Below are positions 11,737 through 29,266 of a stretch of 32,282 bases of DNA, piece after piece. The position numbers and the translations under genes were made by a program. The stretch's first letter is position 1; every line of letters starts with the position of its first letter. The DNA comes from Parachlamydiales bacterium. GTDB taxonomy: Bacteria > Chlamydiota > Chlamydiia > Chlamydiales > JAEMRK01. The DNA is taken from contig JAEMRK010000014.1 of NCBI GenBank assembly GCA_016463375.1, positions 1 to 32,282 on the forward strand. Direction: 5' to 3'. Below the pieces are notes generated by a model that worked only from the letters and a program-made list of their open reading frames with translations, ran no database searches and was not told the origin of the DNA.

Positions 11737-12576
11737 ATGCGAAGAGTCTATTTGATACCAAATATGGTAACGGCACTGGGTTTAGCCTGTGGGTTATTTG
11801 TCATTTTTAAGATGAATATGACAGAACCGGGTACTAGTAATTACCATTTAGTTTTTATAGCGGCCGTGCTCATTTTATTAGCTGCATTAGCAGATGTGCT
11901 TGATGGAGCAATTGCTCGTTTCATTAGAGCAGAAAGTGAGTTTGGCGTGCAATTTGACTCTTTGTCAGATGGCATAGCTTTTGGTGTAGCGCCAGCTGTT
12001 GTTGTGTTAAAAACACTATCGATTCCAAGTGGTACCAAACTTTCATTTTTAGTTACAGGCGCTGCTATGCTATATAGTGTATGTGGTGTATTGCGACTTG
12101 TCCGCTTTAATGTTAAAGCGATGGAAGCTAAAGGTAATGAAGTTAAAAAATTAGCTCATAAAAAGCATTTTACAGGACTACCCATTCCTGTCGCCGCCAT
12201 TTCTGCAGTTTCTGCAAACCTATTTTTAGTATCTGACGATTTCTTACAATTTGGACCAGTCAGCGAAAATATTAGGGGAATTATCATGGCCGTTGTCATG
12301 ATCATTCTGGGATATTTTATGATTAGTCGTTGGAAATTCCCAAGTGTTAAAGCCTTGCATTTCCGCGTTCGATCATTCTATTTGGTGTTAATTACAGTCT
12401 GTATCGCTGTTCTTTTATTATTTGGCGCTCTTTATCATTTTGCCGTTCTCTTTGTATGTATCCCATGGATTTATCTTATTGTAGCTTGGGTACTATCTAT
12501 AATTAGGATGATTGCGGGTAAGAAATCGAAGACTTTAGAAGATTTTGAACCAGACTCTGATGATGACTGGGAATAA
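11737..12576 (+). CDS. pssA: CDP-diacylglycerol--serine O-phosphatidyltransferase
   Basis: This membrane enzyme makes phosphatidylserine from CDP-diacylglycerol and L-serine, the first step towards phosphatidylethanolamine. The complete CDP-alcohol phosphotransferase signature is present: D56-G57-x2-A60-R61-x8-G70-x3-D74-x3-D78, whose Asp residues bind the catalytic metals. About eight hydrophobic segments span the 279 residues, with an acidic C-terminal tail (DFEPDSDDDWE). The N-terminal MRRVYLIPNMVTALGL is the usual opening of the small PssA type. A related CDP-alcohol enzyme such as PgsA is possible but less likely. In C. trachomatis pssA is also next to nrdAB (CT826-828, from memory), so the divergent pair looks ancestral. 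The Shine-Dalgarno sequence is weak. Confidence 0.92.
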   Translation: MRRVYLIPNMVTALGLACGLFVIFKMNMTEPGTSNYHLVFIAAVLILLAALADVLDGAIARFIRAESEFGVQFDSLSDGIAFGVAPAVVVLKTLSIPSGTKLSFLVTGAAMLYSVCGVLRLVRFNVKAMEAKGNEVKKLAHKKHFTGLPIPVAAISAVSANLFLVSDDFLQFGPVSENIRGIIMAVVMIILGYFMISRWKFPSVKALHFRVRSFYLVLITVCIAVLLLFGALYHFAVLFVCIPWIYLIVAWVLSIIRMIAGKKSKTLEDFEPDSDDDWE

Positions 12577-13809: not shown

Positions 13810-14415
13810 TTAATAAAGTCTAAGTAATAATATTAGTATCCCTTCGACCAGAACCTTTTCTCGGCGAAGGGATATTGGTCTATAGTTAGGATTGCCAGAA
13901 GTTAAACGTATGACATCGCCCTCATCGTTGTAGCGCATGATGTATGTTTCGGTTTGATTGATGGTGACAATAGTTGTTTCATTGTCAAAAACGGATGCTC
14001 TTTTTTCCACAAGCAACAAATCCCCATCCATGAGCTGCTCATCTTTAAAACCATCGCCTTGCACTTTCATGACATGACTGATCTGAGGATGAGTGACTAG
14101 GTGGCTAGGCAATGCAATTTTTTCATTACCATGAAGGTACTGTATAGGTTGCCCAGCAGTGATAGTTGCTGTTAATGGTAAAGAAATTTCAGCTTTAGTC
14201 TCCTGAGTCGAATTTAAAGAGCGAGCCTGACCTTTTTCTAATTGCACAAGCCCTTTTTTAGACAGGGAGTGAACATGCTTACTCACTGTTGCTAAAGATG
14301 ATAAATTAAAATGGAGTTGGATTTCTCTGTAGCTTGGACTATACTGATGACGAGAAATAAAATTTTTGATGAACTCTAAAACTTCACGTTGTCTTTTGGT
14401 CAATCCTTTTACCAT
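13810..14415 (-). CDS. LexA-like repressor lacking the autoproteolysis dyad
   Basis: This 201-residue protein has the LexA architecture. Residues 1-65 form the winged helix-turn-helix (LTKRQREVLEFI, SPSYREIQ, SLATVSKHVHSLSKKG), followed by an S24-type C-terminal domain. The scissile Ala87-Gly88 survives (TITAGQPI), as does the loop around MDGDLLLVEK. Aligned by eye to E. coli LexA, the nucleophile Ser119 (GMSM) is Gly122 here (GDGF) and the base Lys156 (TVKR) is Met160 (YIMR). Both catalytic residues are therefore missing, so RecA-stimulated self-cleavage should be impossible. The predicted role is a constitutive or differently sensed DNA-binding repressor. It is the last gene of an MFS-PAP2-LexA operon and overlaps the PAP2 gene by 32 nt. 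A lexA symbol is withheld because the function is probably altered. Confidence 0.88.
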   Translation of the reverse strand: MVKGLTKRQREVLEFIKNFISRHQYSPSYREIQLHFNLSSLATVSKHVHSLSKKGLVQLEKGQARSLNSTQETKAEISLPLTATITAGQPIQYLHGNEKIALPSHLVTHPQISHVMKVQGDGFKDEQLMDGDLLLVEKRASVFDNETTIVTINQTETYIMRYNDEGDVIRLTSGNPNYRPISLRREKVLVEGILILLLRLY

Positions 14416-15112
14416 TAAAAAACCTTACATATAAGATGTAGTCTAGGATTAAAACGGTATACCATGTAATGACAACACTCACAACAATGTCAGTAAAATA
14501 ATGTCCCCCTTGTGCTAATCGCACAAATGCTAAAGCACCGCCGAGAGTTAGAGTCAAAGAGTACCCAGCAATTTTTAAAGGCCTTTTATTCAACCGATTG
14601 CCTAAAACAACTAACACAAAAAAACAAAATCCTGCAGCGGTATGACCAGATGGAAAAGACCTGCAGGGCTCTGGTGTCTTTAATGTGAGGGGTAAGTAAA
14701 ACGGATGAAATGGGGCAAAACCACCAAATTCTTCCGTTTGAACAGGGCGCGGTCTGCGCCATAATCCTTTGAATAAGACATTAATTATCAATAAAGATCC
14801 AATCATGATCGTTAATAATATAAAAATGGAGGGTAGACGAAAGCAGTGCCATTTCTCTTTACGGAAGCTGAGTATTAGTAAAACTAATGCGATAAATCCC
14901 AATAAAAAAACAGGGATCTGCCCAAATCTGTAAATCATAAATGCATAAGGATGATGGCTAAATGGTCTATGGGATAAAGAATGAGAATTATAAAAGAGAT
15001 AGGCCACAAATAAATCGATGGCTTTGCCGAACGGTATAAGTAGACCAACAATGCCCATTGGCAAAATCCATTTACAGAAATTGCGCACAGAAATTTTTTT
15101 TAACAATTGCAC
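14384..15112 (-). CDS. PAP2 family membrane phosphatase
   Basis: This 242-residue membrane phosphatase has the three motifs of the phosphatidic acid phosphatase type 2 superfamily: K115-x6-R122-P123 (KGLWRRPRP), P154-S155-G156-H157, and R198-x5-H204-x3-D208 (RLAQGGHYFTD). H204 should be the nucleophile and H157 the acid/base. About six hydrophobic helices surround the motifs, and the active site faces the periplasm in this family. The FGGFAPFHPF segment before PSGH resembles lipid A phosphatases (LpxE/LpxF-like), but PgpB or undecaprenyl-diphosphate phosphatase activity is equally possible. The start is GTG, one nt after the MFS stop, suggesting translational coupling. Confidence 0.88.
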   Translation of the reverse strand: MQLLKKISVRNFCKWILPMGIVGLLIPFGKAIDLFVAYLFYNSHSLSHRPFSHHPYAFMIYRFGQIPVFLLGFIALVLLILSFRKEKWHCFRLPSIFILLTIMIGSLLIINVLFKGLWRRPRPVQTEEFGGFAPFHPFYLPLTLKTPEPCRSFPSGHTAAGFCFFVLVVLGNRLNKRPLKIAGYSLTLTLGGALAFVRLAQGGHYFTDIVVSVVITWYTVLILDYILYVRFFNGKRIDQKTT

Positions 15113-15113
15113 T

Positions 15114-16331
15114 TTAGATTACCGATATCTTTTCGTTTTTCGCTTGCTTTGCCATATATATAGATCCAATAAATGTGAGCGTTCCGGCGCACAATAACAC
15201 AGATGTCGCTGATAATTGTGTCAGTAAATAACTACCTAAAAATGGGGCTATACATCCCCGTAAACCTACCATTAAAACGTTAACGCTACTAAAGTTAGAA
15301 CTCTCATTTTCTTTTGCAAAAAGAGGCCCTGATAAATGCCAGCTTAATTCACTTCCAGCTTGCATAGCTCCATAAATACCATATGCTAAGTAAATATAAG
15401 TGATATGCTTAGTGCATAACAATAAAACCAAAGGAAATAAAGTCGCAAGCAATGTCACCCAAGTACTAATGGTAAATAGCGAAAATTTTCCGATTATTTT
15501 GGCCCAAGATCTGGACGTTAAAGCAAATCCTATACCTTTACAAGCGGATAGTGCAAAAGCTAATTCGGTGTAGGATAATTGAATATCTTGTACAAAAAAT
15601 AGAGGAAGAGCAGGCTGCATTAGCATTAATCCGCCACCACCTAATGCAAAACCAATTTGAAAACGCCAAAACTGAGGGTGACGTTTTAAAAGAGCGTATG
15701 CATTACCCCAAGGTTTTTTTAATCCTTCGATCAGTGTAAGAGGAGCTATGTTTTTACTATTTTTAGCTACATAGGGCAGTTTCATCTGAAACAAAACACC
15801 AAGACAGCTAATGAATGCAGCTATTGGAAATAAGTATCGCCAAAATCCTGGCTCAATATCCATCCAATATCCGAAACCAAAAGGCAATAAAACGCCAAGC
15901 AGATAAGATATGGTTTGAGCAGATGATAAAAGATGTTCGCGTTTGTTTTCCGGAAGATGCCTTTTTAAAAGCTCCATCCATGCTGGAATGACACCTCGCG
16001 TCATCATCATGTAAAGAGCCGACGCTATAATAATAAACCATGGGCTATCAATCCATGGAAAGAAAAAGAAAGGGGCTCGACCGATTAAGCACGCATAAAT
16101 AACATTGCCGCGCAGTCTGTCTTCTCTTTGATTGACAAAAGCGCTCCAATAAACAGAAAACAAAGAGACAACAGGCTTTAACGCTATAAATAGCGAAAGC
16201 TGCCAAGCCGTAGCATGAAGGTCTTTGTACAGAATAAATGATAAAAGACCGTACAATGCCCAAAAAGGTGCATTAAATAAAGTAGACCATAGATAGGCCC
16301 GACTTGTTTTTTTTGTCTGTAATGGGTCCAT
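15114..16331 (-). CDS. MFS transporter
   Basis: This 405-residue protein has about 12 hydrophobic helices in two halves, separated near residue 200 by a hydrophilic loop (VAKNSKNIAPLTLIEGLKKPWG). That is the usual major facilitator superfamily layout. Short basic cytoplasmic loops (NQREDRLRG, LPENKREHLLS) sit where the MFS signature loops occur. Substrate cannot be inferred. It is the first gene of the operon with the PAP2 phosphatase and the LexA-like gene, and is divergent from rmuC with only about 80 nt between the chosen starts. A TATAAT lies very close upstream, implying a nearly leaderless mRNA. Confidence 0.85.
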   Translation of the reverse strand: MDPLQTKKTSRAYLWSTLFNAPFWALYGLLSFILYKDLHATAWQLSLFIALKPVVSLFSVYWSAFVNQREDRLRGNVIYACLIGRAPFFFFPWIDSPWFIIIASALYMMMTRGVIPAWMELLKRHLPENKREHLLSSAQTISYLLGVLLPFGFGYWMDIEPGFWRYLFPIAAFISCLGVLFQMKLPYVAKNSKNIAPLTLIEGLKKPWGNAYALLKRHPQFWRFQIGFALGGGGLMLMQPALPLFFVQDIQLSYTELAFALSACKGIGFALTSRSWAKIIGKFSLFTISTWVTLLATLFPLVLLLCTKHITYIYLAYGIYGAMQAGSELSWHLSGPLFAKENESSNFSSVNVLMVGLRGCIAPFLGSYLLTQLSATSVLLCAGTLTFIGSIYMAKQAKNEKISVI

Positions 16332-16347: not shown

Positions 16348-16414
16348 CCCAGTTTTCCTTTAAATTGGATTATTTGTTAACGTGCAAAGTAATAAATATT
16401 TAAATAGGTTTTTC

Positions 16415-17818
16415 ATGGAATTAATTTGGATTTGCTCAAGTTTTGCAGTTGTACTTATCGCATTGTTAGTATGGATGTTAAGATCTAATTATGTTTTGCA
16501 AGGGCGCAATCAAGCCATTCAAAAAGAAATTTCAGAAGAAATAACAAAACGTAGTGTTGCTGAGGAAAAAGCTCGACGATCATCAGAACTTGAGAATCAA
16601 ATTGTAAACTTACAATTTGAAAAAGAGACTCTAACGACTAAATTAACTCATATTCAAGTGCGAGCAGAAGAAGAACGCAAAGCAGCTGATGAAAAAATTG
16701 AAATCCTTCAGACAGCAGAAAAAAAATGGACTGATTTATTTAAGGCTTTGTCCGCTGAGAGCTTACAACATAACAATCGCTCATTTTTAGAACTGGCGAA
16801 AGCGACTTTAGAAAAATTTCAAGAAGGTGCTAAAGGCGATTTAGAAAAAAGGCAACAAGCGATTCATGAAATCATAAAACCAGTTAGAGAGTCTTTAGAT
16901 AAATTTGATCACAAAGTATGCGAATTAGAAAAAGCCAGAACAGGTGCTTATGAATCCCTCATGCAACAAGTTAAGCACTTAACAGAAGGCCAAACAGGAC
17001 TTAGACAAGAAACAGCAAATCTTGTTAAAGCATTGCGAGCACCAATTGTGCGTGGTCGCTGGGGTGAGATTCAACTTAAACGCGTTGTTGAACTCGCTGG
17101 CATGCTCGATCATTGCGATTTTTATGAGCAAGAAAGTGTAACAACAGAAGATGGGCGTTTAAGACCAGATCTTCTTGTTCGATTACCTGGTAATAAACAA
17201 ATAGTTGTCGATGCCAAAGCTCCATTGAGTGCTTATTTAGAAGCGATTGAATGCCACGACGAAGATGAGAAAAAATTAAAATTAAAAGACCACGCAAGAC
17301 AAGTGCGTGCACACATCACAGCATTGAGTAAAAAAAGCTATTGGGATCAATTTCAGCCATCACCAGAGTTCGTAGTTTTATTTCTTCCCGGTGAAACTTT
17401 CTTTAGTGCAGCTTTAGAACAAGATCCACAACTCATTGAACTTGGCGTGGAGCAAAAAGTTATATTAGCAACACCTACTACATTAATTGGACTTTTAAGA
17501 GCTGTATCTTATGGATGGAGACAAGAATCATTATCCCAAAATGCAAAACATATTAGTGATATGGGTAAAGACCTATACAAAAGACTTACTGATATGACTG
17601 ATCATTGGGTGCGTATGGGTAAAAATTTGGGACAAGCTGTTCAATGTTACAACAAAGCAGTAGGTTCTTTAGAAACCAGAGTTTTAGTTACAGCTAGAAA
17701 ATTTAAAGATTTAGTTGCGGTGAGTGAAGACGTTGAAGAAGCATCTCCTATCGAACAAGTGCCAAGAGCTTTACAAGCTTTAGATTTGTTTAATCCAAAC
17801 CCTGAGGGTTTGGATTAA
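16415..17818 (+). CDS. rmuC: RmuC family DNA recombination protein
   Basis: RmuC homologues are predicted membrane-anchored nucleases that limit recombination between inverted repeats. Residues 1-22 form a membrane anchor ([21 protein letters not shown]), followed by a long coiled coil to about residue 190 (repeated Glu/Lys/Gln-rich heptads). The conserved catalytic domain then begins [24 protein letters not shown] and contains [21 protein letters not shown], whose D...DAK pattern fits the nuclease-like fold. I chose ATG at 16415 because AGG lies 6 nt upstream and the anchor follows directly; an in-frame GTG at 16382 would add 11 residues. A 14-bp perfect hairpin covers the last codons and the stop. 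Confidence 0.92.
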
Positions 17819-28283: not shown

Positions 28284-28682
28284 ATGCCGATAGAAGTAGT
28301 TTATCGTAGTAAATATGATGACAGATCTTTAGTTCGCTTGCACGTAACAAATTGTGTGAAGTCTTGTGGTCCAAATCAAGTTATTGGCTTGGCTGCATTA
28401 CCTATCTTGTTCACTAAAGCTGTAGTTGCTCGCGTTAAAAAATCTGAAAGAGAAAAAGATACAAAATATTATTTAGCTCCAAGGCCTTGCTATAGTGCAG
28501 AAGCTAGTGCAGAAGCCTGGGTAAATTTTAGTAAAAGAGACGTCTCGAATTGTGATTATAGAATTAAATGTCGTATTGTAAAAATGATACCTTTTGTAGG
28601 AGAGGATATTTATTTATCAAAATTAATTCACAGACATAAAGAATTAAGACTGAATAGAGGCTGGGGCTATTCAAGCGCATGA
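28284..28682 (+). CDS. SCGPNQVI-motif family protein, member B
   Basis: This 132-residue protein is nearly identical through most of its length to the gene at 28877-29266. It has the N-terminus MPIE, NCVKSCGPNQVIGLAALPIL, FTKAVVARVKKS, SNCDYRIKCRIVKMIPFVGED and a HRHKELR tail. Six conserved Cys positions and a basic C-terminus suggest a compact, perhaps metal- or disulphide-stabilised domain after a hydrophobic helix. Its last residues (WGYSSA) are encoded by a short piece of DNA matching the 3' end of dacB in antisense, so the original C-terminus was replaced when about 40-50 bp were lost. AAGGA precedes the ATG. Function unknown. Confidence 0.78.
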   Translation: MPIEVVYRSKYDDRSLVRLHVTNCVKSCGPNQVIGLAALPILFTKAVVARVKKSEREKDTKYYLAPRPCYSAEASAEAWVNFSKRDVSNCDYRIKCRIVKMIPFVGEDIYLSKLIHRHKELRLNRGWGYSSA

Positions 28683-28876: not shown

Positions 28877-29266
28877 ATGCCAATAGAAAAAGATTATCGT
28901 GGTTATGATTATGACAGACCTTCATTTCGCCTGCACGTGACACATTGTGTAAAGTCTTGTGGTCCAAATCAAGTTATTGGATTGGCTGCATTACCTATCT
29001 TATTCACAAAAGCTGTGGTTGCCCGCGTTAAAAAATCTTATAGTGAAAAACCAGAAATGAAATTTAAGAACCTAGCTACAAGGCATGGTTTCAGTGCAGA
29101 AGCCTTTGTAAATTTAAATAAAAGAAACGTCTCAAATTGTGACTATAGAATAAAATGTCGTGTTGTAAAAATGATACCTTTAGTTGGAGAAGATATTTAT
29201 TACTCAAAATTAAGTCACAGACACAAAGAATTAAGAGAGAATAGATGTTGGGACGACAATCCATAA
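28877..29266 (+). CDS. SCGPNQVI-motif family protein, member B'
   Basis: This 129-residue protein is the recent paralogue of 28284-28682. It shares MPIE, HCVKSCGPNQVIGLAALPIL, FTKAVVARVKKS, NVSNCDYRIKCRVVKMIP and GEDIYYSKLSHRHKELR, and differs mainly in a short middle segment and the tail (CWDDNP, probably the original ending). Its leader is also duplicated, with AGGGA before the ATG. The conserved Cys residues are kept in both copies while the linker varies, which suggests selection on the protein. Its stop abuts the dacB stop (convergent, no gap). Function unknown. Confidence 0.78.
   Translation: MPIEKDYRGYDYDRPSFRLHVTHCVKSCGPNQVIGLAALPILFTKAVVARVKKSYSEKPEMKFKNLATRHGFSAEAFVNLNKRNVSNCDYRIKCRVVKMIPLVGEDIYYSKLSHRHKELRENRCWDDNP

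Follow-up and report, generated by a model that had tools for sequence, protein, structure and literature searches.

A chlamydial LexA orthologue without its catalytic Ser-Lys dyad, and repeated loss of the LexA cleavage site across Chlamydiota

The lexA locus

LexA normally destroys itself by self-cleavage and thereby switches on DNA-damage repair, a step at the heart of textbook accounts of the SOS response. The window analyzed here, a stretch of 32,282 nucleotides (contig JAEMRK010000014.1) from a Parachlamydiales bacterium, contains a lexA-like gene that starts with ATG on the minus strand and is preceded by genes for an MFS transporter and a PAP2 phosphatase in a putative operon (Table 1). 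Its product matches the TIGR00498 lexA model over the full length at 140 bits (cut-off 110.95), the PF01726 HTH domain at 70.7 bits (73 bits in the genome search), and the PF00717 S24 domain at 60.7 bits. The best solved relatives include E. coli LexA and Thermotoga LexA, and the best PDB matches that Foldseek returned for an AlphaFold2 model of the protein (pLDDT 92.8) are all LexA structures. The model has low full-length TM-scores against these structures, which presumably reflects a different placement of the two domains. Elsewhere in the window, two neighboring plus-strand ORFs of about 130 aa (28284-28682 and 28877-29266) cluster as paralogues.

Table 1. Features of the lexA locus, in window coordinates
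Feature	Coordinates	Strand	Basis or remark
lexA-like gene, 201 aa, Ser-Lys dyad replaced	13810..14415	-	ORF, PF01726 + PF00717, TIGR00498 140 bits
Winged HTH DNA-binding domain, residues 3-65	14221..14409	-	PF01726
Ala87-Gly88 codons, equivalent to the E. coli Ala84-Gly85 scissile bond, kept	14152..14157	-	Alignment and codon reading
Gly122 codon GGT at the catalytic Ser119 position	14050..14052	-	Alignment and codon reading
Phe123 codon at the active-site Met120 position	14047..14049	-	Column comparison
Tyr158 codon at the active-site Thr154 position	13942..13944	-	Column comparison
Met160 codon ATG at the catalytic Lys156 position	13936..13938	-	Alignment and codon reading
PAP2 phosphatase, sharing 32 nt with the lexA start	14384..15112	-	Closest named match LpxF, below cut-off
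MFS transporter, first gene of the putative operon	15114..16331	-	Beside lexA in this window only
rmuC, divergent, flanks the ancestral locus	16382..17818	+	Gene-order comparison
pssA-like CDP-alcohol phosphatidyltransferase, flanks the ancestral locus	11737..12576	+	Gene-order comparison

The active site of the window LexA

The first-pass annotation had claimed that both catalytic residues are replaced in this protein while the Ala-Gly bond, the fold, and the HTH remain. Alignment to E. coli LexA, the numbering reference throughout, confirms that Ser119 has become Gly122 and Lys156 Met160; A87-G88 is present, both Pfam domains match, and the model resembles LexA, as the claim has it. Each replacement codon is a single base away from the residue expected (GGT from the Ser codon AGT, ATG from the Lys codon AAG). 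The motifs VQGDGFKDE and TYIMRYNDE flank the replaced residues, and their conservation, together with the confident AlphaFold2 model, rules out an alignment error as the source of the apparent dyad loss. Nor is the replacement attributable to chance, because all four cleavage-site residues (Ala84, Gly85, Ser119, and Lys156) are kept by 43 of 43 non-chlamydial LexAs. A Ser or Lys that might serve from elsewhere in the active site was also sought in the sequence alignment; the two catalytic columns of the window LexA contain neither residue, and no compensating Ser or Lys column is seen in that alignment.

The changes extend to two further active-site positions, those of Met120 and Thr154. T154I is, we presume, an Ind- allele of E. 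coli LexA. Both Thr154 and Met120 are catalytic pocket residues of the E. coli protein (PMC13203515), and Thr154 is described as an active-site pocket residue in a second study (PMC10020695). Other unusual changes in the window LexA are G80 to A and G142 to N, and its branch is long (1.59) in a tree with 48 chlamydial and 43 other LexAs. Column comparison with the 43 outside LexAs indicates that the invariant HTH columns are retained. The window protein is an orthologous chlamydial LexA in which self-cleavage has very probably been lost. The alignments lend good support to the earlier conclusion that it cannot self-cleave and so is no classical SOS switch, a conclusion that extends to an entire clade of the phylum.

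Loss of the cleavage site across Chlamydiota

We searched 234 genomes of the phylum and found more than 50 full-length LexA-like proteins, which named records place in Chlamydiota (Parachlamydia, Protochlamydia, Waddliaceae, and others); the comparison with named records used a subset of 12 LexAs, the 47-sequence alignment being too diverse. All 48 chlamydial LexAs in the tree fall on one side of a branch with an SH-aLRT support of 99. On whether the loss is fixed in environmental chlamydiae, 38 of the 48 lack at least one of the four cleavage-site residues, versus none of the 43 outside, and ten keep all four. These ten, which might still cleave, all belong to one family (f21) of the large-genome type, probably Parachlamydiaceae.

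By parsimony, the fewest state changes at A84/G85/S119/K156 number 12/9/13/8, and a model of losses without regain gives 13/9/17/10; the dyad therefore appears to have been lost independently, at least 13 times at S119 and at least 8 times at K156. A84 is changed in 25 and G85 in 13 of the 48 proteins. Ser119 is replaced by G, A, E, F, T, H, L, M, or N, a diversity that is expected for erosion rather than for one new function, and K156R occurs in nine relatives.

We then took the columns in which the 43 outside LexAs reach a conservation of 93% or more and counted how many chlamydial LexAs retain the residue. HTH columns are kept by 90-100% of the chlamydial proteins, as are fold columns such as G80, G117, G128, D129, G142, L167, G190, and R197. 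Retention is 48% for A84 and 73% for G85 at the scissile bond; 52% for S119, 2% for M120, 4% for G124, 2% for T154, and 75% for K156 at the active site; and 19% for N171. The nearly invariant columns that have been lost lie mainly around the active site. M120 and T154 are lost in 47 of the 48 proteins, including the ten that keep Ala-Gly, Ser, and Lys, so that throughout the clade the loss reaches deeper into the active site than the dyad. The only protein to keep both (L015) adjoins the branch to the outside LexAs in a quick tree, which makes an early loss of M120 and T154 within the chlamydial clade probable.

Several other LexA-like proteins were seen. One genome (G043) carries, besides its own altered LexA, a second one that has the canonical residue at each of these positions, groups outside the chlamydial clade, and looks horizontally acquired (L005, G043:C47). 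A second kind of LexA-like protein with a different HTH is found in some chlamydiae (L056, L058, and L062); it has a GDSM-x-PR motif, keeps Lys, lacks Ala-Gly, and lies beside a different gene cluster. The lexA of G097 (L022, near 1485-1510) starts with MKALTK, followed by an apparent one-base frameshift near codon 6-7 that is either real or an assembly error (there is an N nearby). In Saccharibacteria and similar lineages, LexA-type HTH proteins (L129, L132-L137, L139-L143, L145, L147, and L150-L153) are matched over the HTH only and have no alignable S24 catalytic residues.

The PAP2 partner and deletion of lexA

The order rmuC (divergent), PAP2, lexA, pssA, nrdA is found repeatedly around chlamydial lexA. 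Among the 59 loci examined, the PAP2 cluster counts 43 members, most of them immediately upstream of lexA. Overlap between the two genes was measured at 27 loci, and 23 of these show one of 4-47 nt. A phylum-wide search places PAP2 of this kind in 61 genomes, comprising 48 of the 54 LexA-bearing genomes and 13 without LexA, with 167 genomes having neither (Fisher p about 5e-31, uncorrected for kinship). The MFS transporter adjoins lexA only in this window and is rejected as a conserved partner. The window PAP2 is closest to the lipid A 4'-phosphatase LpxF, although its score of 76.6 compares with a model cut-off of 400, and its assignment as an LpxF-like lipid A phosphatase is only a lead.

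PAP2 is kept with no lexA beside it in G030, G044, G045, G049, G061, G069, G074, G078, G080, G082, and G083, and pssA abuts rmuC, with lexA and PAP2 both gone, in the Chlamydiaceae-like genomes G008, G015, and G020 and also in G146 and G230. That PAP2 persists after deletion of lexA indicates that it does not need LexA. The first-pass annotation had proposed, from the MFS and PAP2 genes, control of envelope or transport functions. Support for this proposal is only partial. Its envelope side gains from the overlapping PAP2-LexA pair, which is conserved in most chlamydial lexA loci, and from the proximity of PAP2 to LpxF, but the MFS is particular to the window, no operator was found, and PAP2 outlasts lexA. 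Regulation of its own PAP2 operon by the window LexA is a guess, to which we give a little less than an even chance.

UmuD and RecA in the same genomes

The genome of the window (1.88 Mb, 98.9% complete) contains no second LexA-type HTH protein detectable by profile search; a second, intact LexA, whose presence had been raised as a point to check, is ruled out, the only other S24 protein being UmuD. This UmuD (L001) is complete and is followed by umuC, and RecA is also present. In all 21 genomes that have both UmuD and a LexA of the clade, UmuD keeps Ala-Gly, Ser, and Lys, as well as SM and TVK, and thus seems cleavable; LexA keeps Ala-Gly, Ser, and Lys in five of the 21. As UmuD is intact where LexA is broken, RecA-triggered self-cleavage as such has probably been retained in chlamydiae and given up by LexA only.

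Search for an operator

Regions upstream of 52 lexA operons and 21 umuDC operons were tested for exact dyads, generic gapped 4-mer pairs (47 lexA-operon regions only), and known or plausible LexA boxes, with shuffles as control. No dyad, direct repeat, or known box exceeded the shuffles upstream of these 52 chlamydial lexA and 21 umuDC operons. As a positive control, the gapped-pair method recovers the lexA box of Patescibacteria, whose lexA promoters in most cases contain GTTCGGTTTTTGTTCG between -35 and -10. This related box is absent upstream of chlamydial lexA and umuDC, and a genome-wide scan with it gave fewer matches than the reversed control, with no exact match among those listed.

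In the Patescibacteria themselves, the box is a direct repeat (GTTC-N7-GTTC) lying upstream of lexA between a -35 TTGAC and the -10 (L081, L088-L090, L093-L095, L097-L099, L101, L102, and L131); it resembles the alphaproteobacterial SOS box. Recognition-helix residue 45 is mostly Glu in Patescibacteria LexA and mostly Lys in chlamydial LexA, suggesting that the chlamydial operator may have changed; it may also be of an unrecognized type. Because no operator or target was found, we infer from conservation of the domain only that the window LexA still binds DNA.

Selection and alternative explanations

Pairs of catalytically dead LexAs have low dN, high or saturated dS, and omega of about 0.04-0.14 where computable (0.08 for L035/L049 and 0.04 for L048/L049); one pair with saturated dS (L034/L040) is 89% identical in the C-terminal domain. 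As dS is saturated in most LexA pairs, the dN/dS values are indicative only. Low omega, together with ORFs that remain intact and full-length on long branches, speaks against a neutral decay of lexA in those dead lineages and is indicative of purifying selection on other catalytically dead LexAs, the window LexA itself having no close relative for comparison.

These data bear on the alternative that survives best, namely that lexA is a relic in decay with no remaining function, its dead active site being a stage before deletion. At least 11 genomes retain PAP2 with lexA cleanly absent beside it, and in Chlamydiaceae-like and other genomes both genes are absent from between pssA and rmuC. These absences fit such a protein on its way out, and the repeated deletion of lexA indicates that the gene is dispensable. 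However, the ORFs are full-length with a conserved HTH in 48 diverse loci, at branch lengths of about one change per column, and the dead-dead pairs appear to be under strong purifying selection, as far as the indicative dN/dS values go; we consider a relic unlikely.

Intermolecular cleavage among LexA and UmuD proteins is known. UmuD or another protease could cut the LexA Ala-Gly bond after DNA damage so that the SOS response persists, and the window LexA does keep Ala-Gly in a genome with RecA and an intact UmuD. The same bond has been lost in many relatives that keep UmuD (the A84 and G85 changes given above), and neither lexA nor umuDC shows an SOS box, making cleavage in trans very improbable. 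Finally, that the window LexA is still a cleaving SOS repressor with a displaced or substituted catalytic pair, for which the retained fold and the conservative K156R change in nine relatives could be invoked, is hardly credible, as Gly and Met cannot supply a nucleophile or a base, T154 and M120 are gone as well, and the alignment offers no compensating column.

Proposed role and significance

Based on the lost dyad and the retained HTH and fold, we consider it likely that the window LexA binds DNA as a dimeric regulator that cannot be cleaved, is decoupled from RecA, and is kept by purifying selection, the gene having later been deleted in several lineages. It would act constitutively or under some other control, with the winged HTH binding DNA and the S24-fold C-terminal domain serving only for dimerization or receiving a non-proteolytic signal. 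SOS control would have been given up first and the LexA active site then remodeled, early in the phylum; the dyad would next have eroded independently in separate lineages, and lexA would finally have been deleted in some. A more far-reaching version, which we regard as rather doubtful, is that LexA became a non-proteolytic regulator early in Chlamydiota, tied to outer-membrane lipid chemistry through the LpxF-like PAP2 operon, with the former active-site cleft free for a ligand or partner and UmuD left as the sole RecA-triggered self-cleaving target.

LexA has apparently left the DNA-damage response in most of the sampled relatives in the phylum. Time and again the cleavage machinery of LexA has eroded at a single syntenic locus, in cells whose UmuD keeps it, and the resulting natural series, from intact-looking through remodeled and dead to deleted LexA, makes the disconnection of a stress switch directly testable. 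It also bears on how obligate intracellular bacteria without LexA handle DNA damage.

Comparison with known systems

The window LexA shares both domains and its whole length with canonical LexA (E. coli, TIGR00498), but unlike the E. coli protein it lacks the Ser-Lys dyad, Met120, and Thr154, has no SOS box that we could find, and is not autoregulated as far as is visible. The LexAs of Patescibacteria (Parcubacteria, Kerfeldbacteria, and Falkowbacteria) are among the best-scoring outside Chlamydiota, with 34-38% identity and a similar HTH; unlike chlamydial LexA, every one of them has Ala-Gly, Ser, and Lys in place, and in most the gene's own promoter contains the GTTC-N7-GTTC box. UmuD from the genome of the window has the S24 fold and belongs, as LexA does, to the family with RecA-dependent self-cleavage, but differs from the window LexA in keeping Ala-Gly, Ser, Met, Thr, and Lys, in lacking an HTH, and in forming an operon with umuC.

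The closest precedent is LexA of Synechocystis sp. PCC 6803 (sll1626), which is non-cleavable, with Gly-Gly for Ala-Gly and Asp for Ser119, and regulates non-SOS genes; this one species is reported as the exception among cyanobacteria, the others of which have Ala-Gly (PMC3091678, PMC4759255, PMC7567884). The first-pass annotation was correct to cite it as a precedent for rewiring (PMC3091678, PMC4759255). A non-cleavable LexA is thus already known, and it is the phylum-wide pattern of active-site loss that appears new; we found no description of it in the open-access literature, most subscription papers being outside that scope. Synechocystis LexA resembles the window protein as a LexA orthologue with the HTH and S24 fold and without the residues for self-cleavage. 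Unlike it, chlamydial LexA forms a remodeled clade across a phylum, in which residues were lost many times independently, PAP2 is conserved as a partner, and some lineages have deleted the gene.
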